A stretch of DNA of 64,000 nt from Fulvimarina endophytica (GTDB lineage Bacteria > Pseudomonadota > Alphaproteobacteria > Rhizobiales > Rhizobiaceae). The stretch is taken from contig NZ_QURL01000003.1 in assembly GCF_003403015.1 (NCBI RefSeq), forward strand, positions 434,001-498,000, given 5' to 3'. Positions 50,538 to 64,000 of this stretch are shown here, piece by piece (positions within the stretch are counted from its first letter, which is position 1; each line of letters starts with the position of its first letter). The notes under the pieces are model-generated. The model saw only the letters and a program-made list of their open reading frames with translations, had not been told where the DNA came from and made no database searches. A program made the translations under genes and the position numbers.

Positions 50538-51434
50538 ATGAGAGCCCGCGTGTCCCAGGTCATCGTCACGTCAAGCTATCGTGGAGACTTCGAGCGGTGC
50601 CGCCTGTTGTGCGATTCGATCGATGCGCGCGTGACCGGCCATAGCCGGCACATCATCGCCGTGGAGGCGCGCGACGTCGCCATGTTCAAGGTGCTGGAGG
50701 GCTCAAAGCGCGAGATCGTCGACGAGCGGGACCTCTTCCCCTGGTGGCTGCGCGCCGTTCCAGATCTCACCCATCGGGGCCGCCGCAGCATCTGGCTCTC
50801 CCTGAAGGGGCCGATCATGCACGGCTGGCACACGCAGCAGCTGCGCCGGATCGTGCTCGGCTCGCGGCTCAGGGAGACGACCATGGTGACGGTGGATTCC
50901 GACGTGGTCTTCCTGCGCCCCGTCCATACGAGCCAGTTCGAGACGGCGTCCGGCAAGACCTATTTCTATCGCAAGCCCGGCGGGGTCGCCGAAGCCTTGC
51001 CGCAATACCGGGACGAACACCGGCGCTGGTCGAAAAAGGCCGGCGAGCTTCTCGGCATCGAGACGCCGCCCCACACCGATACCGGCTATATCTACAATCT
51101 CGTCACCTGGGCGACCGACAGCGTGCGCGACATGAATGCGCGCATCGAGGCGGTGAGCGGCAAGGACGCCTTCCGCACGCTGGCGGCGACGCGCATCCTC
51201 TCCGAATGCACGATCTTCGGCCGCTTCGTGGAGGAGGTCGAGGGCGTGACGAAGCGCCACGAGGAGACCAACGAGCCCTTCGCCGCGACCTATTGGGACC
51301 ACGAGCGGCTGGACGAGGCGGCGCTCGACCGCTTCGTTTCGGCGATGAGGCCGAAGGAGATCGCCCTCGGCGTCCAGTCCTTCACCGGAACCGATACCGG
51401 GCTCATTCGCCGGGTTGCAGGACTGGAAGGCTGA
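50538..51434 (+). CDS. DUF6492 family putative glycosyltransferase
   Basis: A 298-residue protein resembling DUF6492 proteins found in alphaproteobacterial polysaccharide clusters. The N-terminal QVIVTSSYRGDFERCRLLCDSID is Rossmann-like, TTMVTVDSDVVFLRP carries a D-x-D that would bind a nucleotide-sugar metal complex, and HTDTGYIYNLVTW with the later ILSECTIFGRFVEE recall GT-A fold enzymes. Position among GT4, WecG-type and flippase genes supports a role in building a surface glycan. It is convergent with the flippase gene and overlaps it by 32 bases. Enzymatic activity is inferred, not established. Confidence 0.78.
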   Translation: MRARVSQVIVTSSYRGDFERCRLLCDSIDARVTGHSRHIIAVEARDVAMFKVLEGSKREIVDERDLFPWWLRAVPDLTHRGRRSIWLSLKGPIMHGWHTQQLRRIVLGSRLRETTMVTVDSDVVFLRPVHTSQFETASGKTYFYRKPGGVAEALPQYRDEHRRWSKKAGELLGIETPPHTDTGYIYNLVTWATDSVRDMNARIEAVSGKDAFRTLAATRILSECTIFGRFVEEVEGVTKRHEETNEPFAATYWDHERLDEAALDRFVSAMRPKEIALGVQSFTGTDTGLIRRVAGLEG

Positions 51435-52716
51435 ACCGCTCGGATCCCGCCTGCCTGCGGCGATGCCGGTCGAGGGTGGTGTAGGCGGTCACCGCCGCGC
51501 CCAGCCAGAGGATCGCGAAGCAGATGTTGAGGGCGAGGAGAATCTCGCCGATCTCGGTGAACTGCAGGAGGAGGAGGGTGAGGAGCCCGGCCTTCGCGGC
51601 GGCAAGCCCGGCCAGCATCGCGACCCGCACCCCGGTGCGCCCTGCCGCGTAGAGGAGTTCGCTCTCGTATTCGACGAGATTGCGGAAGGCGGGAACGAGA
51701 AGCGCGAGAAGGACGAGGGGGGCGGCATCGGCCACATTGTCGCCGAGCGCCCTCGGGAAGAACCGGAGAATGCCGCCGAGGCCCGCGATCCCGGCGATGG
51801 AGACGGCCGCCACGAGCGCCTCGATGCCGATCCGCCGCTTCCAGGAGTCGAGGAAGCCGGGCGCCTTCATGATCTTCTGCACGATCAGCGTGTTGAAGGA
51901 GCGCACCGGCAGGGCCGTGAGGTCCACGAGGCGCATGACGATGGCGTAGATGCCGGCGGCGGTCGGCCCGCCGACGGCGAGGACGAGAAGCTTGTCGAGA
52001 TCGGACTGGAGATAGAACACCACGTCCGCGCCGCAGACCGAGACGCTGTCGCGCCAGCGCGCGAGCCAGAGACGCGGCCTGAATTTAAGCCGCTGGCGCG
52101 GATACCACAGAAGCACCGAGCCGGCCGCGGCGACGAGATTGCCGGCGAGATAGAGCGCGCACCAGACGAGGAGCGAGCCGTCCGAAAGGGCGAAGAACAG
52201 GACTGCGGCCAAAGCCTTCAGAAGCGTGCCCGCGATCGTCAGGATCGCGCCGCGCCCGAACCGGCCGAGGCCGTTGTTGACGACGATGACGATCTCAAGC
52301 GTGCGCCAGCCGACGATTTCGGCAAGAAGGATCAGCGAGAAGGCCAGCGCGCTCATCTCGCCTGCGAAGGCGAGGAGATAGAAGATCGCGGCCATCACCG
52401 CGACGAGGGGAAGCGAGGCGGCGGAGGCGATGAGGAGGCCCGCCGTATAGGTGCCGATGAGGCGCGGGCGCACGGTCGCCGTGCGGTAGAGCGGTGAATA
52501 GAAACCGAGGCCGAACACCCGCGACAGCATGACGCCGGCGGCAGAGGCCGTCGCGAACAGGCCGAAATCGCCGATCGACAGGCTGTTCGCCACGCAGACG
52601 AAATAGAGCAGCGACAGGACCAGCCGCCCGGCCGATCCGGAGACGAGAGACGCGTAGTCGGCAACGACGCTTAGGTCGCCCTTAAGCCTCTCGCGCAACA
52701 CTCGCACGGTGTTCAT
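51403..52716 (-). CDS. Polysaccharide flippase (Wzx/MOP family)
   Basis: A 437-residue polytopic membrane protein with about 12 hydrophobic helices, resembling oligosaccharide flippases that move lipid-linked repeat units across the inner membrane. It begins with a short cytoplasmic arm (NTVRVLRERLKGDL), then DYASLVSGSAGRLVLSLLYFVCVANSL and AEIVGWRTLEIVIVVNNGLGRFG. The central SDLDKLLVLAVGGPTAAGIYAI is the signature segment of this superfamily, ahead of a variable C-terminal half. It is opposite in direction to the other cluster genes, convergent with DUF6492 and divergent from GH10. Substrate probably the product of the adjacent transferases. Confidence 0.85.
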   Translation of the reverse strand: MNTVRVLRERLKGDLSVVADYASLVSGSAGRLVLSLLYFVCVANSLSIGDFGLFATASAAGVMLSRVFGLGFYSPLYRTATVRPRLIGTYTAGLLIASAASLPLVAVMAAIFYLLAFAGEMSALAFSLILLAEIVGWRTLEIVIVVNNGLGRFGRGAILTIAGTLLKALAAVLFFALSDGSLLVWCALYLAGNLVAAAGSVLLWYPRQRLKFRPRLWLARWRDSVSVCGADVVFYLQSDLDKLLVLAVGGPTAAGIYAIVMRLVDLTALPVRSFNTLIVQKIMKAPGFLDSWKRRIGIEALVAAVSIAGIAGLGGILRFFPRALGDNVADAAPLVLLALLVPAFRNLVEYESELLYAAGRTGVRVAMLAGLAAAKAGLLTLLLLQFTEIGEILLALNICFAILWLGAAVTAYTTLDRHRRRQAGSERFSLPVLQPGE

Positions 52717-52753
52717 GGGGCAGGATGCTCCGCTTCGTTCGAAGGATGCGCAG

Positions 52754-53896
52754 ATGGCAGACGGTCGCGATACCGCACTTCCCCGGTCCCATCCTGACGG
52801 GGACGGACCGTTCGCGCAGCTTAGGAGCGAGCCGTTAACGCGGCGTTCCGTGCTGCTCGCCGGCGCGGGCGCGGCCTTCTCGACATTTGCGGCGGGCGCG
52901 GGCCGGGCGCGGGCGGAACCTCTGCGAAAAATCCCCTTCGGCGCAGCGATCCAGAGCGAGTTTCTCGACAGCGATCCGCTCTACGGGCCCGCTTTCCTGC
53001 GCTATTGCGACCTCGTGATGCCGATGAACGAGCTGAAATTCGATCAGATCCATCCCGAACGCGATGTCTGGCGCTTCGAGCCGGCGGACCGGCTCGTCGA
53101 ACTGGCGCTTTCGAACGGGAAGCTCTCGCGGGGCACCTGCCATGTGTGGTGGGGCTCGACGCCGGCCTGGGTGGAGGCGATCACCTCCGAGCGGGAGGCC
53201 GAACGGGTGCTGGTGGAGCATATCGAACGGGTGGGCGACCGCTATCGCGGCAAGCTGACCGGATGGGACGTGGTCAACGAGCCGCTGGCCTACGATCCGC
53301 GCGAGGAGGGTCCCTTGCGCGACACGCACTGGCTGAGGGTTCTCGGTCCCCGGCACATCCCGCTGGCGCTCTCGACGACGGCGCGGGTCGATCCTCAGGC
53401 CCGGATCGTCGTCAACGACTACGATCTGGAATTCGAAGGCCCCCTCTACGACGCCCGGCGCTCGGTGATGATCGACCTCCTGCGCCAGCTCCAGGACGGC
53501 GGCGTGCGCGTCGACGGGCTCGGCATCCAGGGCCATCTCTACGGCGACCGGACGATCGACAAGGACGCACTCGAAGCCTTCCACCGCACCCTCGACGAGA
53601 TGGGCATCGAGCTCCTCGTCACCGAACTCGACGTGATCAACCGGGAGAGCCCGCCGGATCCGGAGAGCATGGACGCACTCGCCTACGATCTCGTCGATGA
53701 TTTCCTCGATGGCGTCTTCGCCCACAAGCCGCCGGCCATGGTCGTCACCTGGGGTCTCACCGACCGCTATTCCTGGATACCGGACGTGATGCCCCGCTAC
53801 GACGGAACGCCGCACCGGCCGCTGCCGCTGACGGCGGATTATGCCGAGAAGAACTGGCTGCATCTCCTCCAGCGCCGGCTCGCGGCCGGGCGATGA
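52754..53896 (+). CDS. Secreted glycoside hydrolase family 10 enzyme
   Basis: A 380-residue GH10 (endo-beta-1,4-xylanase family) retaining glycosidase. A twin-arginine signal (LTRRSVLLAGAGAAF, about 29-43) directs export of the folded enzyme. The acid/base Glu is E176 in GWDVVNEPL and the nucleophile E291 in LLVTELDV; VMPMNELKFDQIHP, the WW of CHVWWGSTPAW and a late TWGLTDRYSW complete the family set. ATG 52754 was chosen because GAAGGA lies seven bases upstream; earlier in-frame ATGs add an Asp/Lys-rich leader. In a polysaccharide cluster it may trim or release the exported polymer rather than degrade plant xylan. Confidence 0.93.
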   Translation: MADGRDTALPRSHPDGDGPFAQLRSEPLTRRSVLLAGAGAAFSTFAAGAGRARAEPLRKIPFGAAIQSEFLDSDPLYGPAFLRYCDLVMPMNELKFDQIHPERDVWRFEPADRLVELALSNGKLSRGTCHVWWGSTPAWVEAITSEREAERVLVEHIERVGDRYRGKLTGWDVVNEPLAYDPREEGPLRDTHWLRVLGPRHIPLALSTTARVDPQARIVVNDYDLEFEGPLYDARRSVMIDLLRQLQDGGVRVDGLGIQGHLYGDRTIDKDALEAFHRTLDEMGIELLVTELDVINRESPPDPESMDALAYDLVDDFLDGVFAHKPPAMVVTWGLTDRYSWIPDVMPRYDGTPHRPLPLTADYAEKNWLHLLQRRLAAGR

Positions 53897-53926: not shown

Positions 53927-54582
53927 ATGTGGCGTTGTCTGCATATCCGACCCGGCGGGTTCTATTCATTGGTGAAGAAGCCGTTGAGCAGGCGGGCTCG
54001 GGAGGATGCCCGACAGATCGATCTGATCAGGAAGGCCTGGAAGCATAGCGGCAGGGTCTAGGGCTACCGCAAACTGTACGACGATCTTCTCGACCAAGGC
54101 GAGACCAGTTGCGCCAATCGGGTCGCTCGTCTTGCAAAGTTGGCCGGCATCAAAGCGCAGATCGGCTACAGGCGTCGACCTGGTTCCTACGGTGGCAAAC
54201 CGTCGGTCGTGGTCGACGACGCCCTTGCCCGGCAGTTCGATGTCGATTCGCCGGGCAAGGCATGGGTGACAGACATCACTTCCACCCGAACCCAGGAAGG
54301 CTCTGCCTATCTGGCCGTGGTGATCGACCTGTTTTCCCGCCGTATTATCGGATGGTCGATGCAGAGCCCGCAGACGACCGACGTCGTGCTGCAGGCATTG
54401 CTCATGGCGGTCTGGTGTGGAAAACCGAAGAACGCGGTCCTGATCCATTCCGACCAGGGCTCCCAGTTCCCGGGATAGATTGGGCAACGTTCCTCAAGCA
54501 CCACAATCTCGAGCCCTCGATGAGCCGTCGTGGCAACTGTCACGATAACACCGTGGCCGAAAGCTTCTTCAATCTCTTCTAG
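53927..54582 (+). pseudogene. Decayed IS3-family transposase (OrfB)
   Basis: Remnant of an IS3-family DDE transposase. In one frame it reads from about 53927 through HSGRV, a TAG stop at 54059, then GYRKLYDDLLDQGETSCANRVARLAKLAGIKAQIGYRRRPGS and the catalytic core with AWVTDIT and VVIDLFSRRIIGWSM. A one-base shift near 54470 moves it to IDWATFLKHHNLEPSMSRRGNCHDNTVAESFFNL, after which the gene breaks off where an IS5-like sequence begins. The C-terminal part and OrfA are missing and no terminal inverted repeats were found, so it cannot transpose. Confidence 0.85.
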
Positions 54583-55012
54583 CGCAGGCGCAAGGCGAAG
54601 GTTGATCTGCGGGAGGTGGTGAATGCGATCCGCTACTAGACGCAACGGGCGTGGACTGGCGCATTCTCCCGGAGAACCTCCCAGCCTGGCAGACGGTCTA
54701 CTAGTGCTTTCGACGTTTCGTCCGGCTGATGCGGTCCAAGTCGATCTACAACCTGGCGCTGATGCTTGACCGTGAGCGGCAGGCGCGGGAGGCCAGCCCG
54801 ACAGCGTGCGTCGTTAAGAGCGAGAGCGTGAAGGCACCGGCACCCAGCGCAAAACATGGGTTCGACGGCGCAAAGAGGGTTGCCGGTCGCAAGCGCCATA
54901 TCGTCGTGGACACGGACGGGCGCATGCTGATGGTCAATCTGACGTCTGCCGATATCTCTGGCCGCGCTGGTGCACAGCATATTCTGGATACGATCCGCAG
55001 ACGCTGGCCCTT
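54583..55012 (+). pseudogene. Decayed IS5-family transposase fragment
   Basis: Begins abruptly after the IS3 remnant with RRRKAKVDLREVVNAIRY, a stop, then in a shifted frame DWRILPENLPAWQTVY, another stop, CFRRFVRL and [35 protein letters not shown] and [20 protein letters not shown] follow. This is the N-terminal and central part of an IS5-type transposase. At the usual first catalytic Asp (DSQS) it has KSES, a further sign of decay. It ends at RRWP where a reversed recombinase fragment starts. Confidence 0.83.
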
Positions 55013-55402
55013 GCCCTCCTCCCGCGCCCGCTTCAGCCCTGCATGGGTGCGCTCGATCAGAAGATCGCGCTCGAACTCGGCGACCGCGTTGATGACGCCC
55101 ATGGTCATGCGGCCCGCCGCACTCGTCAGATCGACACCGCCCAGCGCCAGGCAATGGACCCGGATGCCCTGCTCAGCGAGATGATCCACCGTCCGGCGCA
55201 CGTCCATGGCATTGCGTCCGAGCCGGTCGAGCTTGGTGACGACGAGGACGTCCCCCGCCTTCAGCCGGTCGACCAGCTTAGCAAAGCCCGGCCGCTCCAT
55301 CGCGGTGTGGGAGCCCGACACCGTCTCGGAGACGACACGGCGCGCCTGAAGATCGAACCCTGCCGCGCGGATCTCGCCGAGCTGGTTCTCGGTGGTCTGC
55401 AT
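55007..55402 (-). pseudogene. Truncated serine recombinase (resolvase/invertase) fragment
   Basis: On the minus strand an open frame reads [17 protein letters not shown], then [31 protein letters not shown] and [27 protein letters not shown], the core of a resolvase-type serine recombinase. The N-terminal strand with the catalytic Ser (RVST-type motif) has been replaced by unrelated sequence, and the DNA-binding helix-turn-helix is lost at the junction with the IS5 fragment. It continues open to 54746 only by reading backwards through the IS5 remnant. Not functional. Confidence 0.8.
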
Positions 55403-55616
55403 ATGAACATGCTCGAAATGAAGAAAGGCGGCTTTTCGAACAGATCGCGGCGCGAATCTTCGAAACTGGACGGTTTTGGCGATCTCCAGAGTGCATCATG
55501 CGTTGCAGATCCCATTATGCTCCTGTGAAGGAGAACTAACGAACTATTTAATTTCTGATTATGGACGCGTTTTTCTTCCCCGCCTAGTTTCGTTTCTGCA
55601 ATCTGGGAGGAAAGCG

Positions 55617-56471
55617 ATGAACGCGGATCATCCGCGCGGGATCGGGGACAACGTGTCCCTCGCCCGACGCGCCTATAACATTCGGCGTAAGGCGCTCCGC
55701 ATGGGCGAGGTGCAGGGCCAAGGCTATATCGGACAGGCGCTCGGCGTCGCCGATGTTCTCGCCGCCAGCTACTTCCATACGATGAGCTATCGATCCGACG
55801 ACCCGGAATGGGAGGGGCGCGACCGCTTCCTCCTGTCGATCGGCCACTATGCGATCGCGCTCTATGCCGTCCTGATGGAGGCGGGCATCCTGCCGGAAGA
55901 CGAACTCGAAACCTACGGCATGGACGACAGCCGCATGCCGATGTCGGGCATGGCCTCCTATACGCCGGGCATGGAGATCACGGGCGGCTCGCTCGGTCAG
56001 GGCCTGGGGATCGCCGTCGGGATGGCGATGGGCCTGAAGCGAAAGGCCTCGGACGCCTTCGTCTACAACCTGATGAGCGATGGCGAACTCGACGAGGGTT
56101 CGACCTGGGAAGCCGCGATGGCTGGAGCCCATCATGGTCTCGACAATCTCGTCTGCCTCGTCGATTTCAACAACCAGCAGGCGGACGGACGCTCGACAGA
56201 AATGAGCGCACTCGAGCCGCTTCCTGAAAAGTGGCAGGCGTTCGGCTGGCACTGCCAGCGGGTCGACGGGAACGATCTCGACGCGGTCACAGCCGCCTTC
56301 GACGCCGCACGGGCGCTCAAGGAGCCCCGGCCGCGCTGCATCGTCTTCGACACCAAGATGTGCAAAGGCGTGCCGTTCCTGGAAGCCCGCGACAAGAACC
56401 ACTTCGTGCGCGTCGAGGCCGACGAGTGGGAAAAGGCGCTCGCAGAACTCGACGAGAGGGCGCCGGCATGA
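55617..56471 (+). CDS. Transketolase, N-terminal (TPP-binding) subunit
   Basis: A 284-residue protein equal to the N-terminal pyrophosphate-binding half of transketolase. GHYAIALYAVLMEAG and MEITGGSLGQGLGIAVGMA are present, and the TPP/Mg motif reads SDGELDEGSTWEAAMAGAHHGLDNLVCLVDFNNQQADG. Together with the next gene it makes one split transketolase, which moves a two-carbon ketol unit between sugars. ATG 55617 follows GGGAGGAAAG. It opens an operon with an SDR, a TRAP importer and a second transketolase, and overlaps the C-terminal subunit by ATGA. Split forms occur in archaea and in catabolic operons such as the sulfo-transketolase sulfoquinovose pathway; substrate here unknown. Confidence 0.92.
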   Translation: MNADHPRGIGDNVSLARRAYNIRRKALRMGEVQGQGYIGQALGVADVLAASYFHTMSYRSDDPEWEGRDRFLLSIGHYAIALYAVLMEAGILPEDELETYGMDDSRMPMSGMASYTPGMEITGGSLGQGLGIAVGMAMGLKRKASDAFVYNLMSDGELDEGSTWEAAMAGAHHGLDNLVCLVDFNNQQADGRSTEMSALEPLPEKWQAFGWHCQRVDGNDLDAVTAAFDAARALKEPRPRCIVFDTKMCKGVPFLEARDKNHFVRVEADEWEKALAELDERAPA

Positions 56472-57511
56472 CTGCGAATTCCATGGCCCGCAAGTACGAG
56501 CCGCGCCAGGTTCTCCGGCGTGCGGACGGCCAGAAGCTCACGACATCGGCGATGATCGCCTCGCTGGAGGCGGAAGGCTACGAGAGCGTCAGGGCACCGT
56601 TCGGCAACGCTCTCGTGGACCTTGCGAAGACCAATGACAAAGTCGTCGGCATCACGGCCGACCTTTCGAAATACACCGATCTGCACGTCTTCGCCGAAGC
56701 GATGCCGGACCGGTTCTATCAGATGGGAATGGCCGAGCAGGTGATGCTATCGGCTGCTGCCGGTCTCGCCCGGGAGGGGTTCATGCCCTTCGCGACCACC
56801 TATGCGGTCTTCGCCTCTCGCCGCGCCTACGATTTCATTGCGATGGCGATTGCGGAGGAGAATCTTCCGGTTCGCATCGTATGCGCGCTGCCGGGGCTGA
56901 CGACCGGCTACGGTCCGAGCCACCAGGCGACGGAGGATCTCGCGATCTTCCGGGGCCTGCCGAACATGACGATCGTCGATCCCTGCGATGCCGACGACGT
57001 CATGGGCATGGTGCCTGCGCTCGCGGCTCACGATGGGCCGACCTATTCCCGCCTCCCGCGCGGCAATGTCCCGAAGGTCCTGACGAAGCACAAGCCGGAC
57101 TATCGCTTCGAGCTCGGCAAGGCCCAGACGATCCGCGAGGGTCGCGACGTCCTCGTCATCTCGACCGGCTTCATGACCATGCGCGCGCTCGACGCTGCGG
57201 TGAAGCTCGAAGCCGAAAACGTGGATGTCGGGGTCCTGCATGTCCCGACCATCAAGCCGCTCGACGTGGAAACGATCGCCGCCGAGGCGGCGAAGGGCGG
57301 CCGGCTCGTCGTGACGGCGGAGAACCACACGGTGGTCGGCGGCCTCGGCGAGGCTGTCGCCGCCGCCCTTCTGACGCGCGGCATCGCGCCGACCTTCAGG
57401 ATGATCGGCCTGCCGGACGAATTTCTGGAGGCCGGCGCCCTGCCGACGCTTCACGACATGTACGGCATCTCGGTTGACAAGGTCGCCGAGCGCATCAAGG
57501 CTTGGCTCTAG
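56468..57511 (+). CDS. Transketolase, C-terminal subunit
   Basis: A 347-residue partner holding the pyrimidine-binding (Pyr) and C-terminal domains of transketolase. The catalytic Glu that activates TPP is in MGMAEQVMLSAAAGLAREG, with FATTYAVFASRRAYDFI and GLTTGYGPSHQATEDLAIFRGLPNM following. The His of the phosphate-binding THDSIG of canonical enzymes is absent here (ALPGLTTG). A C-terminal Rossmann-like domain starts near DVLVISTGFMTMRA. It overlaps the N-terminal subunit gene and precedes the SDR by nine bases. Loss of phosphate-binding residues is usual in split, DXS-like transketolases and leaves substrate choice open. Confidence 0.91.
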   Translation: MTANSMARKYEPRQVLRRADGQKLTTSAMIASLEAEGYESVRAPFGNALVDLAKTNDKVVGITADLSKYTDLHVFAEAMPDRFYQMGMAEQVMLSAAAGLAREGFMPFATTYAVFASRRAYDFIAMAIAEENLPVRIVCALPGLTTGYGPSHQATEDLAIFRGLPNMTIVDPCDADDVMGMVPALAAHDGPTYSRLPRGNVPKVLTKHKPDYRFELGKAQTIREGRDVLVISTGFMTMRALDAAVKLEAENVDVGVLHVPTIKPLDVETIAAEAAKGGRLVVTAENHTVVGGLGEAVAAALLTRGIAPTFRMIGLPDEFLEAGALPTLHDMYGISVDKVAERIKAWL

Positions 57512-57520
57512 GGGGAGACG

Positions 57521-58279
57521 ATGGCTCAAGGACTGCTCGAAGGACGGTATGCGATCGTGACGGGCGCGGCGAGCGCGCGCGGTCTCGGCAAGGCGACCGC
57601 GAAACTTTTCGCCGACCATGGCGCGACGATCGCGATCCTCGATCTCGATGCGAACGCCGCGAAGGCGGCCGCCGCCGATCTCGGCGAAGACCACGTGGGC
57701 TTTGCCTGCGATGTGACAGACAAGACGGCCTGTGCCTCCGTTGCCTCCGAACTCAAGGCCCGGTGGGGCCGGATCGATGTTCTTGTCAACAATGCCGGAA
57801 TCACACAGCCGTTGAAGCTGATGGAAATCGAGCCGCAGAACTACGAGGCTGTGCTCGACGTCAATCTGCGAGGTACGCTTTATATGAGTCAGGCCGTCAT
57901 TCCGGGCATGCGGGAGGTCGGATCGGGCTCGATCGTCAATCTCTCTTCAGTATCCGCGCAACGCGGCGGCGGGATCTTCGGTGGCCCCCATTATTCGGCG
58001 GCCAAAGCCGGGATTCTCGGACTGACCAAGGCGATGGCCCGGGAACTCGCACCGAGCGGCGTCAGGGTCAACGCAATCTGTCCAGGCTTCATCGCGACCG
58101 ACATCACCGCGGGCAAACTGACCGATGAGATGCGGGCGCAGGTTCTTGCCGGCATCCCGATGGGACGGGCCGGCGAGGCGTCCGACGTGGCAGGTTGCGC
58201 GCTGTTCCTTGCCTCGGACCTCTCGGCATACTGCACGGGAACCGAGGTCGACGTGAACGGAGGTTCGTTGATCCACTGA
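57521..58279 (+). CDS. SDR family oxidoreductase of the transketolase-TRAP operon
   Basis: A 252-residue short-chain dehydrogenase. The cofactor loop is TGAASARGLG, one residue longer than the usual TGxxxGxG. Asp at the end of the second strand (AILDLDANAAK) favours NAD(H). NNAG, Ser in NLSSVSAQRGG and Tyr/Lys in HYSAAKAGI form the catalytic centre. It starts nine bases after the transketolase C-subunit in the same operon (GGGGAGA upstream). Its likely job is oxidation of the imported hydroxy acid or polyol to the ketose-type compound cleaved by transketolase, or reduction of a product; neither is proven. Confidence 0.9.
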   Translation: MAQGLLEGRYAIVTGAASARGLGKATAKLFADHGATIAILDLDANAAKAAAADLGEDHVGFACDVTDKTACASVASELKARWGRIDVLVNNAGITQPLKLMEIEPQNYEAVLDVNLRGTLYMSQAVIPGMREVGSGSIVNLSSVSAQRGGGIFGGPHYSAAKAGILGLTKAMARELAPSGVRVNAICPGFIATDITAGKLTDEMRAQVLAGIPMGRAGEASDVAGCALFLASDLSAYCTGTEVDVNGGSLIH

Positions 58280-58351
58280 CGTTCGGGCAGCGCCGATGGG
58301 AGTTCGGCGTCGCTCGGAATGTTCAGGTGAAGTCAATCCAGGGAGGAAATC

Positions 58352-59386
58352 ATGAAAGCTCTACTGACCGCGCTCATCGGCGCGACCATAATGGCCGGGA
58401 CCGCCGCTGAGGCTCAGGAGGTGACGTTCGGCCACGGCGCCAATCCGGGCAATCCGCGCTTCGTCGCGGCGGAGAAGTGGGCCGAACTTTTCAAGGCGTG
58501 TTCTTCGGACGCGACCGTCAATGTCGCGCCGTCGGCGACCATGGGCGACGATGCCGAAATGCTCACCTCGGCTCAGGCCGGCGTCATCCAAGTGACCGCC
58601 AACAGCCAGGGCGCGATGAGCCAGATCGTTCCCGAGGTCGGCCTTCTCGGTCTGCCTTTCCTGTTCAAGGATCTGCCGACTGCCTGGAAGGTGCTCGATG
58701 GCGACGTGGGCAAGATGATAGACGAGCGCTCCCAGGAAGCGGGCCTCAAGGTGCTCGGCTTCTGGGACAACGGCATCCGCCAGGTGACGCACGTGTCGAA
58801 GAACGTGCCGGAACCGGCCGACATCAAGGGAATGAAGATCCGCACGCCGCCCGACGAGCTGCGTCTCGCGATCTTCGAAGCGCTCGGCACCTCACCCGCG
58901 CCGCTCGCCTTCTCGGAACTGCCGAGCGCGCTGCAGGCTGGCGTATTCGACGGCCAGGAGAACCCGCTCACCAACATCTACTCGTCGAAAATCCATGAGA
59001 TCACCCCGTTCATCACTCTGACGAACCATGCCTATGAGGCCACACCGGTACTCGCCGGTCTTTCCTGGTGGGAGGGTCTCGACGACGCAACGAAGCAGTG
59101 TGCACTCGATGCGACCGCGGAGGCGGGCAAGATGCAGCGCCAGCTCTCGTTCGAGGCCGACGAGAAGCTCAAGCCGATGATGGAGAAGGAGGGCGTCACT
59201 TTCGTGGAGGCTGATCGCCAGGCCTATGTCGATGCGACCGCTTCGGTCTACGATACCTATGCCGAGCGCTATCCGGATCTCGTCAAGGCTCTTCGCGAGG
59301 CCGCCGGTCAGTCGTCCGGCTCGGGCGAAGGCTCGTCCTCGGGAGAGGCTCCGCAGGCAAGCGGGGACGGCGCTCCGGCGCAATGA
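58352..59386 (+). CDS. dctP: TRAP transporter substrate-binding protein DctP
   Basis: A 344-residue periplasmic binding protein. The signal peptide (MKALLTALIGATIMAGTAAEAQ) is cleaved after about residue 22. The DctP core has HGANPGNPRFVAAEKWAE at the start, GLLGLPFLFKDLPTAW, and the carboxylate-binding Arg in DIKGMKIRTPPDELRL. QAGVFDGQENPLTNIYSSKIHEI follows, typical for the family. A Ser/Gly-rich tail of about 25 residues is added after the fold. The Arg suggests an organic acid ligand. AGGGAGGAAA precedes the ATG, and the stop overlaps dctQ by ATGA. Likely the most highly expressed gene of the operon. Confidence 0.94.
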   Translation: MKALLTALIGATIMAGTAAEAQEVTFGHGANPGNPRFVAAEKWAELFKACSSDATVNVAPSATMGDDAEMLTSAQAGVIQVTANSQGAMSQIVPEVGLLGLPFLFKDLPTAWKVLDGDVGKMIDERSQEAGLKVLGFWDNGIRQVTHVSKNVPEPADIKGMKIRTPPDELRLAIFEALGTSPAPLAFSELPSALQAGVFDGQENPLTNIYSSKIHEITPFITLTNHAYEATPVLAGLSWWEGLDDATKQCALDATAEAGKMQRQLSFEADEKLKPMMEKEGVTFVEADRQAYVDATASVYDTYAERYPDLVKALREAAGQSSGSGEGSSSGEAPQASGDGAPAQ

Positions 59387-59955
59387 CCGGCCAGGCCACC
59401 GACGGTCTTCCGGACCAGCATGGGGAGACGCCGCGCGGCGTCCCCCGCTTCGTCGAATACGTGATCCGCGCGATCGACTTCGTCGGTTGCGCGATCTGCG
59501 CCGGCACGCTTGCCTTCCTCTTCGCAGCGATCCTCATCAACGTCATCCTGCGCTATCTGTTCGGCACCGGTATCGTCTGGGCTTACGAGATCCATGCGTT
59601 GCTCCTGCCATGGCTCGTCGCAGGCGGCGTCACGATCGCCTCGACGCGCGGGCGGCACATCGCCGTGACGCTCATGCCGGCGATGGTCTCCGGCTGGGCC
59701 CGCTACGCGGTCTACGTGGCCGTCCATCTCGCGGTGATCGCGATCTCGGTCGAAGTCGTCCTGTCGAGCCAGCCGATCCTCAGGGCCTCCCAGTTTCAGT
59801 CGCTCGCCTCGCTCGGGATCAAGCAGGTATGGGGCTATGCCAGCATCCCTGCGGCGTTCGGCGTCATGGCGCTGGTTTCGGCACTCGAACTCCTGCGCCT
59901 GATCCTCGGCGGCCGCGAAGCGGCGCCCGATCCTTCCACCGAAAGCCTGAGCTGA
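59383..59955 (+). CDS. dctQ: TRAP transporter small permease DctQ
   Basis: A 190-residue inner-membrane protein with four hydrophobic helices, the small subunit that pairs with DctM. Family landmarks are ILINVILRYLFGTGIVWAYEIHALLLPWLVAGGVTIASTRGRHIAV, in which the tryptophan-Ala-Tyr-Glu and Arg-Gly-x-His positions are conserved, and SLGIKQVWGYASIPAAFGVMALVSALE near the end. It starts on the dctP stop (ATGA) and ends 12 bases before dctM. The short N-terminal extension (TGQATDGLPDQHGE...) is variable in the family. Confidence 0.92.
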   Translation: MTGQATDGLPDQHGETPRGVPRFVEYVIRAIDFVGCAICAGTLAFLFAAILINVILRYLFGTGIVWAYEIHALLLPWLVAGGVTIASTRGRHIAVTLMPAMVSGWARYAVYVAVHLAVIAISVEVVLSSQPILRASQFQSLASLGIKQVWGYASIPAAFGVMALVSALELLRLILGGREAAPDPSTESLS

Positions 59956-59967
59956 GGAGAGCTGACG

Positions 59968-61224
59968 TTGACCGGCTTTATGATCGCAGCCTTCTTCGTG
60001 CTGATCGCGCTCGCCGTTCCCATCGCTCACGCGATGGTCGGCGGAGCAGCCGTCGCGCTTCTCCTCGAGGGACGAACGCTCGCCGTTCTCGCACAGCGGC
60101 TTTACACGCCCACCCAAAGCTTCCCGATGCTCGCGATCCCGTTCTTCATCATGGCGGGAAGCTTGATGATGAGCGGCAAGTTCGGCGTCTATCTCGTCAA
60201 TATCGCCCGCTTCGCGGTCGGCCGCTTCCGCGGCGGTCTCGGCCAGGTGTCGATCATCGGCTCGGTGATGTTCGGCGGGGTCTCGGGATCGGCCGTCGCA
60301 GATGCCTCGGCACTCGGCAATGCGCTGATACCGGTGCAGAAGAAGGAGGGCTATTCCGGCGGCTTCGCCGCGGCGATCAACTCGGCCTCCTCGACGGTCG
60401 CGGTGCTGATCCCGCCCTCCATCCCGCTCATCCTCTTCGGGCTCGTTGCGAACACCTCGATCATCGACCTCTTCGTCGCCGGCATCCTGCCCGGCCTGAT
60501 GCTCGGCATCGGCATGTGCACGGCGGTCTGGTGGGTCGCCCGCAAGCGCAACCTGCCACGCTCTCCGCTCGAGGGCGGCTTCCAGACGATGAAGAAGCAG
60601 TTGCTGGTCGCAACGCCCGCCCTGATGATGCCGGTCTTCATCATCGGCACATTGCGCTTCGGCATCGCAACGCCAACCGAGGTATCGGTCATGGCGGTCG
60701 CCTATGCGCTGCTCGTCGCAGGCCTCATCTATCGCGACCTGACGCTTGCCATGCTCTGGCGCACCTGCGTCGAGACCGGACTGATGACCGGCGCGGTGAT
60801 GCTGATCATCATGGGCTCCTCCGTGCTGCAATGGGTGCTGACGGCCGAGCAGGTGCCGCAGAACCTTGCCAACTGGGTCGAGATCACCTTCGCCGAGCCC
60901 TGGATGGTGATCCTCGCGCTCAACGTGGTGATGCTCGTCGTCGGCGCCTTCCTCGACCTTCCGGCGGCCGTCCTCCTGCTCGGTCCGATCTTCGTCGTTA
61001 TCGCACAAACGATCGGGCTCGACGTGGTTCAGCTCGGCTTGATGATGGTCGTGAATCTCGCGATCGGACTCTATACGCCACCCGTCGGGACGACGCTGTT
61101 CATCTCCGCCGCGATCGCGCGGGTGGGCATCTGGGAGGTCACGCGCTCGCTCCTGCCGTTCTATCTGGTCGCGATCTTAGTCCTCGCCCTCATCTCCTAC
61201 GTTCCGGCGCTGACGATCTACTGA
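59968..61224 (+). CDS. dctM: TRAP transporter large permease DctM
   Basis: A 418-residue transporter core with about 12 helices that imports the DctP-bound substrate using the sodium gradient. Seen: IPFFIMAGSLMMSGKF, GQVSIIGSVMFGGVSGSAVADASALGNALIPVQKKEGYS, and NSASSTVAVLIPPSIPLILFGLVANTS, which are the strongest family signatures, and TPPVGTTLFISAAIA near the end. The start is probably TTG 59968: GAGGAG lies eight bases upstream, whereas the first ATG (59980) is 20 bases away. Third gene of the TRAP set, 91 bases before the full-length transketolase. Confidence 0.94.
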   Translation: MTGFMIAAFFVLIALAVPIAHAMVGGAAVALLLEGRTLAVLAQRLYTPTQSFPMLAIPFFIMAGSLMMSGKFGVYLVNIARFAVGRFRGGLGQVSIIGSVMFGGVSGSAVADASALGNALIPVQKKEGYSGGFAAAINSASSTVAVLIPPSIPLILFGLVANTSIIDLFVAGILPGLMLGIGMCTAVWWVARKRNLPRSPLEGGFQTMKKQLLVATPALMMPVFIIGTLRFGIATPTEVSVMAVAYALLVAGLIYRDLTLAMLWRTCVETGLMTGAVMLIIMGSSVLQWVLTAEQVPQNLANWVEITFAEPWMVILALNVVMLVVGAFLDLPAAVLLLGPIFVVIAQTIGLDVVQLGLMMVVNLAIGLYTPPVGTTLFISAAIARVGIWEVTRSLLPFYLVAILVLALISYVPALTIY

Positions 61225-61315
61225 ACAGGCTGAATCGCCGCCATCCGGCCGACACGTCCTTGCGATCGGCAGGATCTCGATTCCGCCTTAAGCGAAGGAG
61301 CGTGAGGTTTCCAAC

Positions 61316-63289
61316 ATGCGAAAGGTGCCCATGAGCGATCTTCAATCCATGGCCCACGCGATCCGTTTCCTTGCGATGGACGCGATCGAGCGGGTGGGGG
61401 AGGGGCATCAGGGCGTCCCGCTCGGCATGGCGGAGATCGCGACGGCGCTCTACGCCCGTCACCTGAAGTTCGATCCGTCCGATCCGACTTGGCTGGACCG
61501 CGATCGCGTCGTCCTGTCGAACGGTCACGGATCGATGCTCCTCTATGCGCTCAATTATCTGAGCGGCTACACGAAGATCGACATCGACGCGGTCCGGACC
61601 TTCCGCGAGCTCAACTCCCATTGTGCGGGCCATCCCGAGATCGATCAGACGGCCGGCATCGAAATGACGACCGGCCTTCTCGGACAGGGTGTCGCTTCGG
61701 CCGTCGGGATGGCGGTCGCGGAGGCGCGCCTGGCGACGCGCTATCCGGGCCTCGTCAACCATCGGACCTGGGTCTTTCTCGGTGACGGATGCCTTGAGGA
61801 GGGTATGGGTCAGGAGGCGATCAGTCTCGCCGGCCACTTGAAGCTCGGCAAGCTGACACTTCTCTGGGACGACAACGCGATCACCGACGACGGTGCGACC
61901 TCGCTTGCGATCTCGGAGGACATACCGGCTCGCTTCGAGGCTGCGCACTGGCACGTGCAGAGCGTCGACGGTCACGACATCGAGGCGGTCTCAGCGGCGA
62001 TGGGAGCCGCGAAGGCCGATCCACGCCCCTCGATGATCGCGTGCCGGACGTCGATCGCTCGCGGCATTGCCCGCATCGAGGGCCGGCGTGCGGGCCATTC
62101 GGGAAGGATCACCCGGGAGGACACCGACGCAGCGCGAACGGCCCTCGGTTGGTCTGCGCCGGCGTTCGAGGTGCCGGACGACGTGCTCGACGCCTGGCGA
62201 GCAAGCGGACGGCGCGGCGCGCGGACCAATGCGGCATGGCGCGAAGCGCTGTCGAGCGATCCGCAAGCCGACATGTTCCTTGCAGCTCTCAGCGGAACCG
62301 GCGAGACGTGGCGGATGCCGCTGGAGGCGAGCGCGCGCGCGCTCGTCGGACGCGAGCAATCCACCGTCCACTCGTCCGGAGAGGTCTGCGAGGCGATGCG
62401 AGAGGATTTCGACGGGCTCCAGATCCTCTGCGCCGATCTCGAGGCGCCGACCGATCACAAGCGAGGACGCGATGCCTTCACGGCCGACGACCGATCGGGC
62501 TCCTACGTTCATTGCGGTGTGCGCGAGCATCTGATGGCCGCCATGGCGAACGGGATCGCGAGCCATGGCGGGCTCTACCCGGTCCCCGTTACCTATTTCG
62601 CCTTCACCGACTACATGCGCGCCGCGATCCGCATGGCAGGGCTGATGGGGCTGCCCGGCCTTTTCGTCCTCAGCCACGACTCGATCGGGGTTGGACGGAA
62701 CGGTCCGACCCACCAGCCGGTGGAGACCCTTGCAGGCTTCAGGGCCATGCCGAACGTTCTGATGATGCGCCCAGCCGACGGCGTCGAAACCGCGGAAGCC
62801 TGGGAAATCGCACTCGAGCGCCGGACCGGTCCGGTGCTCCTCGCCCTGACAAAGCAGGCCGTGCCGCCGGTGCGCAACGAGGCGTCGGAAAACCGTTCGC
62901 GCCGCGGCGCCTACGTCCTTGTCGAGCCGGCGACTGGCGACCGTGACGCGACCATCCTCGCGACCGGATCTGAGGTTTTCGTCGCGTTGCGTGCCCAGTC
63001 GATACTCGCAGACGAGGGAATCTGCGCCGCTGTCGTCTCCATGCCATGCTGGGAGCTCTTTGCCGAGCAGGACGCCGACTATCGCGCACAGGTGCTCGGG
63101 CAAGCGCCGCGATTTGCCGTCGAAGCCGCGGTACGCTTCGGTTGGGATCAATGGATTGGCACCGAAGGCGGTTTCGTCGGCATGACAGGATACGGCGCAT
63201 CGGCTGCAGCCGAAACCCTCTACGATCACTTCGGAATCACGCCCGAACGGGTGGCGGAAACCGTCCGGCGGACCGTTTCGAAGGCGTGA
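61316..63289 (+). CDS. Full-length transketolase with altered phosphate-binding site
   Basis: A 657-residue single-chain transketolase. The TPP motif is FLGDGCLEEGMGQEAISLAGHLKLGKLTLLWDDN, the catalytic Glu is in GVREHLMAAMANGI, and SHDSIGVGRNGPTHQPVETL is present. Compared from memory with yeast and E. coli enzymes, the phosphate-binding Arg of ATRKxS is V351 here (STVHSS), the Ser of TPSN aligns with PT, and the Arg of SRQN is K513 (TKQA), while the His of HDSIG is kept. That argues against the usual phosphosugars. It ends the operon with split transketolase, SDR and TRAP importer. ATG 61316 (GAGG eight bases upstream) or 61331. Confidence 0.92.
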   Translation: MRKVPMSDLQSMAHAIRFLAMDAIERVGEGHQGVPLGMAEIATALYARHLKFDPSDPTWLDRDRVVLSNGHGSMLLYALNYLSGYTKIDIDAVRTFRELNSHCAGHPEIDQTAGIEMTTGLLGQGVASAVGMAVAEARLATRYPGLVNHRTWVFLGDGCLEEGMGQEAISLAGHLKLGKLTLLWDDNAITDDGATSLAISEDIPARFEAAHWHVQSVDGHDIEAVSAAMGAAKADPRPSMIACRTSIARGIARIEGRRAGHSGRITREDTDAARTALGWSAPAFEVPDDVLDAWRASGRRGARTNAAWREALSSDPQADMFLAALSGTGETWRMPLEASARALVGREQSTVHSSGEVCEAMREDFDGLQILCADLEAPTDHKRGRDAFTADDRSGSYVHCGVREHLMAAMANGIASHGGLYPVPVTYFAFTDYMRAAIRMAGLMGLPGLFVLSHDSIGVGRNGPTHQPVETLAGFRAMPNVLMMRPADGVETAEAWEIALERRTGPVLLALTKQAVPPVRNEASENRSRRGAYVLVEPATGDRDATILATGSEVFVALRAQSILADEGICAAVVSMPCWELFAEQDADYRAQVLGQAPRFAVEAAVRFGWDQWIGTEGGFVGMTGYGASAAAETLYDHFGITPERVAETVRRTVSKA

Positions 63290-63330
63290 ACGCAAAGGGG
63301 GAACGCGTGGACAACTCGTCGATCCGGAAC

Positions 63331-64000
63331 TCAGGCGATGTCCATGCCGGCGGGCGGACTGAACGTGCATCCGAGGCGGGTGAGGAGATTGCGGGCGAGC
63401 CGGTCGTGCTCGGTGGCCTCCTCTCGGATCCAGTTCGAGAAATTTGCGACGATCCGCCGGTTACGATGGCGCGCCGGACAGACGATCCAGTAAGCCGGAA
63501 ATTCGATCACCGGCAGGGACGGCGACAACGGAACGAGATCGCCGTTGACCAGCTCGCGGATCGCGAGCGTCGAGCTTTCGAGAACGACGCCCCCGTCGTC
63601 GACCGCCAGCTGGATCGCCATGGAGGAACGATCGAGCTGGATCGGGAAGACCGACGGAATGGTGTCGATGCCCTGTTCCGTCAGCCAGAAATCCCATCTG
63701 TAAAGGGCCTTGACACTGTCTATCAGCCGCGCGCTCGCAAGCTGCTGCCGCGGATCTTCGGAGATTCTCGTCAACTCGTCGCGATAGGCCGGCGAGCACA
63801 TCGGCAGTACCAGGTCGTTGAGGACGGCTTCGGAATGAAGTCCGCTCCAGGCGCCCGGTCCATAGCGCAGGTCGATGTCCGTGATCTCGGTCTCGAAGCG
63901 CGAGAAGTCCGGAGTCGCATCGATCCTGAGATCCCAACCGGAATTGGTGTCGAGAAAGCGCTTCAGCCTCGGCCCGAGCCAGCGCACGCCGAAGGATGGC
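63331..64000 (-). CDS. LysR family transcriptional regulator (N-terminus outside window)
   Basis: The effector-binding domain of a LysR-type regulator. The frame is open to the window edge and begins with PSFGVRWLGPRLKRFLD, the canonical TPSFxxRWLxPRL start of a GcvA-like ligand domain, followed by DLRYGPGAWSGL and VLPMCSPAYRDEL. The DNA-binding helix-turn-helix must lie beyond base 64000. The gene points towards the transketolase operon, tail to tail with it (42 bases between stops), so it is not divergent at its own promoter. It may still regulate the operon or a neighbour outside the window. Residues DGGVVLESSTLAIRELVNGDLV are typical of the GcvA group. Confidence 0.9.
   Translation of the reverse strand, partial: PSFGVRWLGPRLKRFLDTNSGWDLRIDATPDFSRFETEITDIDLRYGPGAWSGLHSEAVLNDLVLPMCSPAYRDELTRISEDPRQQLASARLIDSVKALYRWDFWLTEQGIDTIPSVFPIQLDRSSMAIQLAVDDGGVVLESSTLAIRELVNGDLVPLSPSLPVIEFPAYWIVCPARHRNRRIVANFSNWIREEATEHDRLARNLLTRLGCTFSPPAGMDIA

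Follow-up and report, generated by a model that had tools for sequence, protein, structure and literature searches.

An operon at positions 55,617 to 63,289 of a 64,000-nucleotide stretch of the Fulvimarina endophytica genome (contig NZ_QURL01000003.1; the whole stretch is referred to as the window) encodes a split transketolase with the subunits TKN and TKC, a NAD-type short-chain dehydrogenase (SDR), a DctPQM importer of the tripartite ATP-independent periplasmic (TRAP) type, and a second, single-chain transketolase (TK2). The enzyme classes, the gene order, their conservation and the loss of phosphate-pocket residues can be read from the sequence, and the residues lost suggest that the pockets of both transketolases have been rebuilt away from phosphate-tagged sugars. 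We rate the chances as about even that this operon is controlled by a LysR-type regulator and degrades an unphosphorylated sugar acid, which would be oxidized by the SDR and then cleaved by transketolases adapted to unphosphorylated substrates. An earlier note had described the seven genes as one unit without kinase, aldolase or isomerase. All seven were found as described, and none of these three enzyme types is encoded within 55617-63289.

In the numbering of E. coli transketolase TktA, His26 is replaced by Tyr and His100 by Ser in all 116 aligned N subunits (TKN). TKC has Tyr, Leu and Tyr at the sites of Ser385, His461 and Asp469 in 135 out of 135 C subunits, with Arg520 kept, so that the canonical pentose phosphate transketolase pocket with the former three residues was found in none of them. 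The aligned loci were chosen by similarity to the C subunit of the window, and the invariance is valid for that group only. The best solved match of both halves was the split-gene transketolase of Carboxydothermus hydrogenoformans (6yaj, 6yak; 188 and 234 bits). An alignment to this enzyme agreed with the assignments, except that Asp469 can equally be read as deleted. Unlike the split enzyme of the window, it keeps His at 26, 100 and 461 as well as Ser385 and Asp469.

TK2 is altered in a different set of residues. Among 52 single-chain transketolases, a tree computed by a quick method with SH-aLRT support placed it in a clade of 26 with a support of 100, apart from 26 others including E. coli TktA. 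All 26 clade members have Asn at Asp469, Arg at 258 and Asp at Ile189, and all lack Arg358, Ser385 and Glu468, whereas Arg91, His26, His66, His100, His261, His461 and His473 are kept. In TktA, Arg358 contacts the phosphate and Asp469 the C4 hydroxyl. The canonical pentose phosphate pocket is thus not present in the clade, in which Arg358, Ser385 and Asp469 were lost in 26 out of 26 and His461 was retained. In the comparison transketolases, which were the top TK2 matches and mostly came from the same order, Arg358, Ser385, Glu468 and Asp469 were retained in 25 out of 25. The TK2 of the window has Asn469, Pro385 and Val358 and scored below the cut-off of the bacterial transketolase model TIGR00232 (Table 1). 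Both transketolases of the operon have the domain content PF00456, PF02779 and PF02780 above the Pfam cut-offs.

Changes at 385, 469 and 520 shift the acceptor of E. coli transketolase from phosphorylated to non-phosphorylated aldehydes, according to PMC5073344. In the same account, Ser385 touches the substrate phosphate, with which Tyr385 would clash, and Asp469 is salt-bridged to Arg91, which Asp469Thr exposes to the substrate carboxylate in docking. The lab-evolved variant S385Y/D469T/R520Q described there is changed at the same positions, and its Tyr385 occurs naturally in the split enzyme. In contrast to this variant, evolved for aromatic aldehydes, the split enzyme keeps Arg520 and is also changed at His26 and His100. 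The phosphate-orienting residues are given in PMC11659671 as RSFHR for canonical enzymes and RAFDR for the sulfo-transketolase. Both motifs were mapped onto the TktA columns by us, with SqwGH represented by its reported motif and not by an alignment. At places 1, 2, 4 and 5 the split enzyme shows a variable residue, Tyr, Leu and Arg, and TK2 mostly Ile, Pro (or Ala), His, and Arg or Lys.

The earlier note did not recognize this combination of genes and proposed a neighborhood survey, which showed it to be real and recurrent in relatives. TKC matches at E <= 1e-80 were obtained in 60 out of 397 genomes of the order, own genome counted, of which 13 belong to a more distant TKC group with 46 to 56% identity. 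TKC was also found in 189 plasmid records. Neighbors were counted over 142 loci, made up of the window, 39 loci of the order survey, 22 plasmid records and 80 loci from a scan of named genomes, in which the best 80 of at least 550 relatives were kept. These loci contain about 134 distinct C subunits, some of them being the same genome twice. Counts refer to 8.5 kb around the C subunit and are lower bounds, as open reading frame calling misses genes. The N subunit was labeled in 123 loci, the SDR in 122, a LysR regulator in 112 and a TRAP binding protein in 77. MFS carriers were present in 23 loci; the single one scanned matched the D-galactonate transporter family (250 bits, below the cut-off of 395). 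Therefore, LysR, SDR, split transketolase and a transporter form a recurrent core unit with interchangeable transporters. Seen in well over 100 loci, this gene set is not a chance neighborhood. An L-threonate-dehydrogenase-like protein was found in 24 loci, and the two scanned had L-threonate dehydrogenase as best model (316 and 284 bits, under the cut-off of 350). Less frequent neighbors were a TIM-barrel protein (17 loci), a dihydroxyacetone-kinase-like protein (15), a D-2-hydroxyacid dehydrogenase (13) and an amidohydrolase (11).

TK2 is a second recurrent part beside the core. It was labeled in 23 of the 142 loci, including L182, with an enzyme of the other clade 6 kb from the split transketolase, and L195, which is truncated in its contig stretch and outside the tree. 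Within the TK2 clade, 22 of 26 members are located no more than 10 kb from a split transketolase. The remaining four belong to two Azospirillum operons and to two genomes (G072, G108) with the split enzyme elsewhere. In the order sample, the split enzyme was present in 11 out of 11 genomes with a TK2-clade enzyme, own genome excluded, versus 48 out of 385 others (Fisher p ~3e-10, overstated because the genomes are related). The 11 genomes were picked from the top TK2 matches by identity and place in the tree, and in 9 of them both enzymes are at most 10 kb apart. The two Azospirillum operons encode an SDR, TK2, a D-2-hydroxyacid dehydrogenase and a glycerate kinase without the split enzyme; hence, split enzyme and TK2 may be parallel modules. 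For 12 of the 26 TK2s, a D-2-hydroxyacid dehydrogenase is encoded no farther than 6 kb away; the window has none, and the own genome has no close copy (best match 37%).

The loci span Alpha-, Beta- and Gammaproteobacteria and Actinomycetota. In the latter, the split transketolase was found on an Arthrobacter plasmid (L137) and in Enemella (L190), which also has TK2. These occurrences indicate that the modules have crossed phyla.

The active-site Ser, Tyr and Lys of the SDR are kept in 127, 127 and 126 of 128 labeled SDRs. Of these, 120 have Asp at the NAD-type position (D41), which we take as a mark of NAD preference. In DctP, Arg143 and Arg164 were invariant in 20 out of 20 proteins in each of two alignments with overlapping sets, and one of the two presumably is the carboxylate-binding arginine that the earlier note had claimed for this protein. 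The TRAP transporter models TIGR00787 (239 bits, cut-off 175) and TIGR00786 (413 bits, cut-off 268) were matched, and the DctP, DctQ and DctM domains scored over their cut-offs. The AlphaFold model of DctP (pLDDT 80.6) had the sugar acid binding protein 7bbr as best Foldseek match, by a narrow margin with near ties; VIA-align gave 4xeq as top row (Z 38.0), again followed by ties. Sialate, isethionate and ectoine binders were also among the structural matches. At its C-terminus, the DctP of the window is prolonged by a Ser/Gly-rich tail of some 25 residues (59310-59386; 344 aa versus about 321 in close relatives).

In the proposed pathway, a polyhydroxy acid would be imported by DctPQM, as judged from the transporter family. 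The transporters at the recurrent loci (TRAP, MFS) suit anions and thereby support an acidic substrate. The NAD-dependent SDR would oxidize the hydroxyl beside the terminal carbon to the ketone HOCH2-CO-CHOH-...-COO-. Thiamine-dependent cleavage would then transfer a two-carbon ketol to an acceptor and leave a short aldehyde acid; here the enzyme class comes from the sequence and the substrate is predicted. The simplest acceptor would be glyceraldehyde 3-phosphate, yielding xylulose 5-phosphate. The two transketolases may act on one stereoisomer each or make two successive cuts. We infer substrate, acceptor and products from these assignments. Tentatively, the operon could represent a carboxylate counterpart of the sulfo-transketolase pathway, in which one oxidation of an imported free sugar acid is followed by removal of two-carbon units by the split and the single-chain transketolase. 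The end product would be glyoxylate or a similar aldehyde acid, and the pentose phosphate pool would be supplied with no kinase involved.

Extension past the 64 kb, as proposed in the earlier note, revealed genes that bear on the size of the acid. A convergent LysR gene is followed by a D-erythronate dehydrogenase gene (DenD; NCBIfam NF043036, 362 bits versus cut-off 325), two genes downstream of the operon. Located 9 to 13 kb beyond the operon end are genes for L-threonate dehydrogenase (417 bits, cut-off 350), 3-oxo-tetronate kinase (OtnK; 561 bits, cut-off 350) and 3-oxo-tetronate-4-phosphate decarboxylase (275 bits, cut-off 250), together with a 2-oxo-tetronate-isomerase-like protein (233 bits, below its cut-off of 325). 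None of the tetronate genes above NCBIfam cut-offs (LtnD or DenD, OtnK, OtnC) lies inside 55617-63289. The D-erythronate and L-threonate genes next door favor a four-carbon acid of the erythronate or threonate type. Such a tetronate would be converted to 3-oxo-tetronate and further to glyoxylate, with the two-carbon unit placed on the acceptor. With the tetronate pathway (LtnD or DenD, OtnI, OtnK, OtnC) encoded just downstream in the same genome, 3-oxo-tetronate would be a common intermediate, although that pathway arrives at dihydroxyacetone phosphate through kinase and decarboxylase steps, for which the operon has no genes. Four named loci (L153, L180, L183, L201) carry the L-threonate set close to the split enzyme, at a distance of up to 8.5 kb, and OtnK was present in 45 out of 59 order-sample genomes with the split enzyme versus 127 out of 337 without, these being related genomes. 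The loss of Asp469 in both enzymes, also found in AptB, whose substrate presumably has no C4 hydroxyl, was counted in favor as well, as were the neighbors resembling L-threonate dehydrogenase and those of the D-2-hydroxyacid dehydrogenase type. However, in the order sample no genome apart from the own one had OtnK less than 20 kb from the split enzyme among the stronger matches, which were listed and compared by eye. As the OtnK link is not general in the order sample, the confidence in the four-carbon version was lowered, and taken alone we regard it as possible but doubtful.

Several further points weigh against the general proposal or its four-carbon version. OtnK within 8.5 kb of the split enzyme was restricted to 4 of the 142 loci. 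A kinase route for tetronates is already present in the genome, which would make a second route redundant. If the phosphate pocket has been lost, glyceraldehyde 3-phosphate might be accepted poorly. The His26/His100 pair of ordinary transketolases contacts the ketol donor, so ketol transfer may be beyond the split enzyme, which does not have this pair. A glycerate kinase is located beside TK2 in L131, L132 and L155 and near TK2 in L195, which fits five- or six-carbon acids better.

Five- or six-carbon acids would constitute a sub-case of the general proposal. A pentonate or hexonate would be oxidized to a 4- or 5-keto acid and cleaved, maybe by the transketolases in sequence, to tartronate semialdehyde or tartaric semialdehyde and on to glycerate. 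Besides the glycerate kinase and D-2-hydroxyacid dehydrogenase beside TK2 in the two Azospirillum operons and L155, and within the L195 cluster, the sugar-acid binder as best Foldseek match of DctP is in line with it. Formation of tartaric semialdehyde by a mutant E. coli transketolase is described in PMC12016104. Nevertheless, we consider this version unlikely. Tartronate-semialdehyde reductase was not found at its cut-off among the scanned proteins, and both enzymes lack Asp469, although these donors keep the hydroxyl that it contacts.

The altered donor site of TKN raises the question of whether the split enzyme is a ketolase at all. It may instead be DXS-like or acyloin-cleaving, with the SDR turning a diol into an acyloin from which an acyl unit without a C1 hydroxyl is removed. 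This would agree with the replacement of His26 and His100 in 116 out of 116 N subunits, with DXS as the next solved match of TKC after Carboxydothermus (161 versus 234 bits), with some similarity of TKC to the NCBIfam dxs model, and with the SDR score of 209 bits on the meso-2,3-butanediol dehydrogenase model (cut-off 270). An oxidoreductase with a DRL catalytic domain (PF21135, one member scanned) is divergently encoded beside the split enzyme in seven loci (L118, L180, L190, L191, L192, L193, L201; example L193:6485-7924), which could likewise point in this direction. On the other hand, TKN matches transketolases, both halves match best an active split transketolase, the neighboring TK2 has the full His set, and the NCBIfam dxs score of TKC alone, a part-length protein, was 196 bits and far below the cut-off of 466. 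An enzyme of this kind seems rather improbable to us.

Still less probable is that TK2 represents an ordinary spare transketolase feeding the pentose phosphate pathway. Its catalytic His and Glu residues are indeed preserved, as are Arg91 and His461, and position 520 is basic. Its separate clade, the tie to the split enzyme and the pocket altered in 26 out of 26 members argue against this role. Furthermore, the own genome carries a Calvin-type and another transketolase of canonical make-up, and its two other high-scoring transketolases group with the TktA side of the tree. Its place in the tree and its pocket residues led us to discard a housekeeping role of TK2.

A sulfonated sugar, one of the options named in the earlier note, is very unlikely to be the substrate. 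In the sulfo-transketolase pathway (SqwGH, SqwI, SqvD), a sulfoquinovose-type substrate would undergo two cuts to sulfoacetaldehyde. That pathway, as outlined in PMC9594981 and PMC11659671, has a catabolic split transketolase for a sugar whose head group is acidic without being a phosphate, and two-carbon units are passed to glyceraldehyde 3-phosphate; the operon would resemble it in these respects. The expectation of two cuts and a putative TauE-like permease downstream (L006:15163-15990, assigned by reading of the sequence) would also fit. It differs in the head-group residues and in its SDR, TRAP importer and second single-chain transketolase. Ala and Asp of RAFDR, as given in PMC11659671, would take the places of Ser385 and His461; the split enzyme carries Tyr and Leu there (135 out of 135), and TK2 carries Pro or Ala at the first site and His at the second. 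Since neither enzyme has canonical or sulfo-transketolase head-group residues, the sulfoquinovose version is not supported. No match to GH31 (PF01055) was obtained in the 99% complete genome, while control matches appeared in 6 out of 14 genomes; this covers sulfoquinovosidases of the GH31 type only. Among the scanned recurrent neighbor families no sulfonate-sugar enzyme was found; beside this negative stands a sulfatase-family protein (780 aa) that neighbors the split transketolase, along with a TctABC-like transporter, in six loci (L091, L092, L095, L098, L167, L169; example L092:8159-10501). What is supported of the earlier interpretation is degradation of an acidic substrate by a unit that has two transketolases of its own, given their recurrent pairing and rebuilt pockets.

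An apulose-4-phosphate transketolase of the apiose pathway (AptAB) is the least probable alternative: it too is a split transketolase in a catabolic cluster with Tyr at the Asp469 site of AptB, and the TIM-barrel and dihydroxyacetone-kinase-like neighbors could make and phosphorylate a ketose, yet identity to AptA and AptB of E. coli SE15 is 37% and 31% (gene tags from PMC13001218), AptA retains His26 and His100, the E. coli cluster has an FGGY kinase (aplK) and a sugar ABC importer that the window operon lacks, and a dihydroxyacetone-kinase query, run without a positive control, had no match in the window genome. In its predicted working the operon is closest to the sulfo-transketolase and apulose-4-phosphate routes, yet it lacks the tested features of both. 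Our preferred assignment is cleavage of a sugar acid by transketolases adapted to unphosphorylated substrates.

Some loci may extend the substrate range of the family. A TIM-barrel and/or dihydroxyacetone-kinase-like protein is encoded beside the split transketolase in L126, L127, L157, L158, L164, L165, L172-L176, L179 and L181, which possibly reflects another substrate class. The scanned TIM-barrel neighbors matched no NCBIfam model. An apiose assignment for both neighbor types was dropped on account of the FGGY kinase in the E. coli apiose cluster and the distant AptAB. In L125, L138, L139, L140, L143, L152 and L170, a ribose-type ABC importer and an amidohydrolase accompany the SDR and the split transketolase. 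The amidohydrolase matched best L-fucono-1,5-lactonase in NCBIfam, far below the cut-off, and these loci may channel a sugar or lactone into the route.

The seven operon genes all lie on the plus strand with intergenic spacings of -1, 9, 72, -4, 12 and 91 bases (Table 1). The best match of each operon protein exceeded the Pfam gathering cut-off. Between the operon genes no forward terminator-like site was found, and the only such site in 55300-64000 is on the opposite strand (4.5 expected by shuffling). Promoter-like sites were at chance level (1 versus 0.9 expected). Judged from this layout, co-transcription of the seven genes is plausible.

Table 1. Genes of the putative sugar acid operon and the adjacent regulator gene (window positions).
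Feature	Position	Strand	Evidence
TKN, N-terminal subunit of split transketolase	55617..56471	+	PF00456 141 bits; ATG after ggaggaaagcg
TKC, C-terminal subunit of split transketolase	56471..57511	+	PF02779 116 bits, PF02780 98 bits
SDR, NAD-type short-chain dehydrogenase	57521..58279	+	PF13561 234 bits
DctP, TRAP substrate-binding protein, family 7	58352..59386	+	PF03480 233 bits
DctQ, TRAP small permease	59383..59955	+	PF04290 68 bits
DctM, TRAP large permease	59968..61224	+	PF06808 388 bits
TK2, single-chain transketolase, predicted remodelled pocket	61316..63289	+	PF00456 364 bits; TIGR00232 638 vs cut-off 682
LysR-type regulator (GcvA-like), convergent	63331..64000, runs to ~64296 in genome	-	PF03466 50 bits; whole ORF L006:11331-12296

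Upstream, a putative transposase fragment (+) and a resolvase gene (-, PF00239) occupy 54100-55402 directly before the operon. These mobile-element remnants fit acquisition by transfer. Within the genus, neither of the two other species has a close TKC copy (best matches 32 to 33%), which makes acquisition of the operon probable. Further upstream are a GH10 (xylanase-family) protein with an N-terminal signal-like stretch (52709-53896) and an adjoining flippase-like membrane protein (51403-52716). Between DenD and the L-threonate set, reading of the sequence suggests a hydrolase, the TauE-like permease, a TctABC-like transporter and a LacI-like regulator. A model scan of the TctC-like protein gave no match.

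Transketolase is usually regarded as a phosphosugar enzyme. In a search of open-access literature, with most subscription journals and supplements outside its scope, no paper on this gene set was recognized. Our analysis points to two transketolase families, one of them widespread, that differ at 385 and 469, positions changed in the laboratory to shift E. coli transketolase off phosphorylated aldehydes. If free sugar acids are indeed their substrates, this would establish a kinase-free catabolic route and provide ready-made biocatalysts, and many genes annotated merely as transketolase would gain a testable function.

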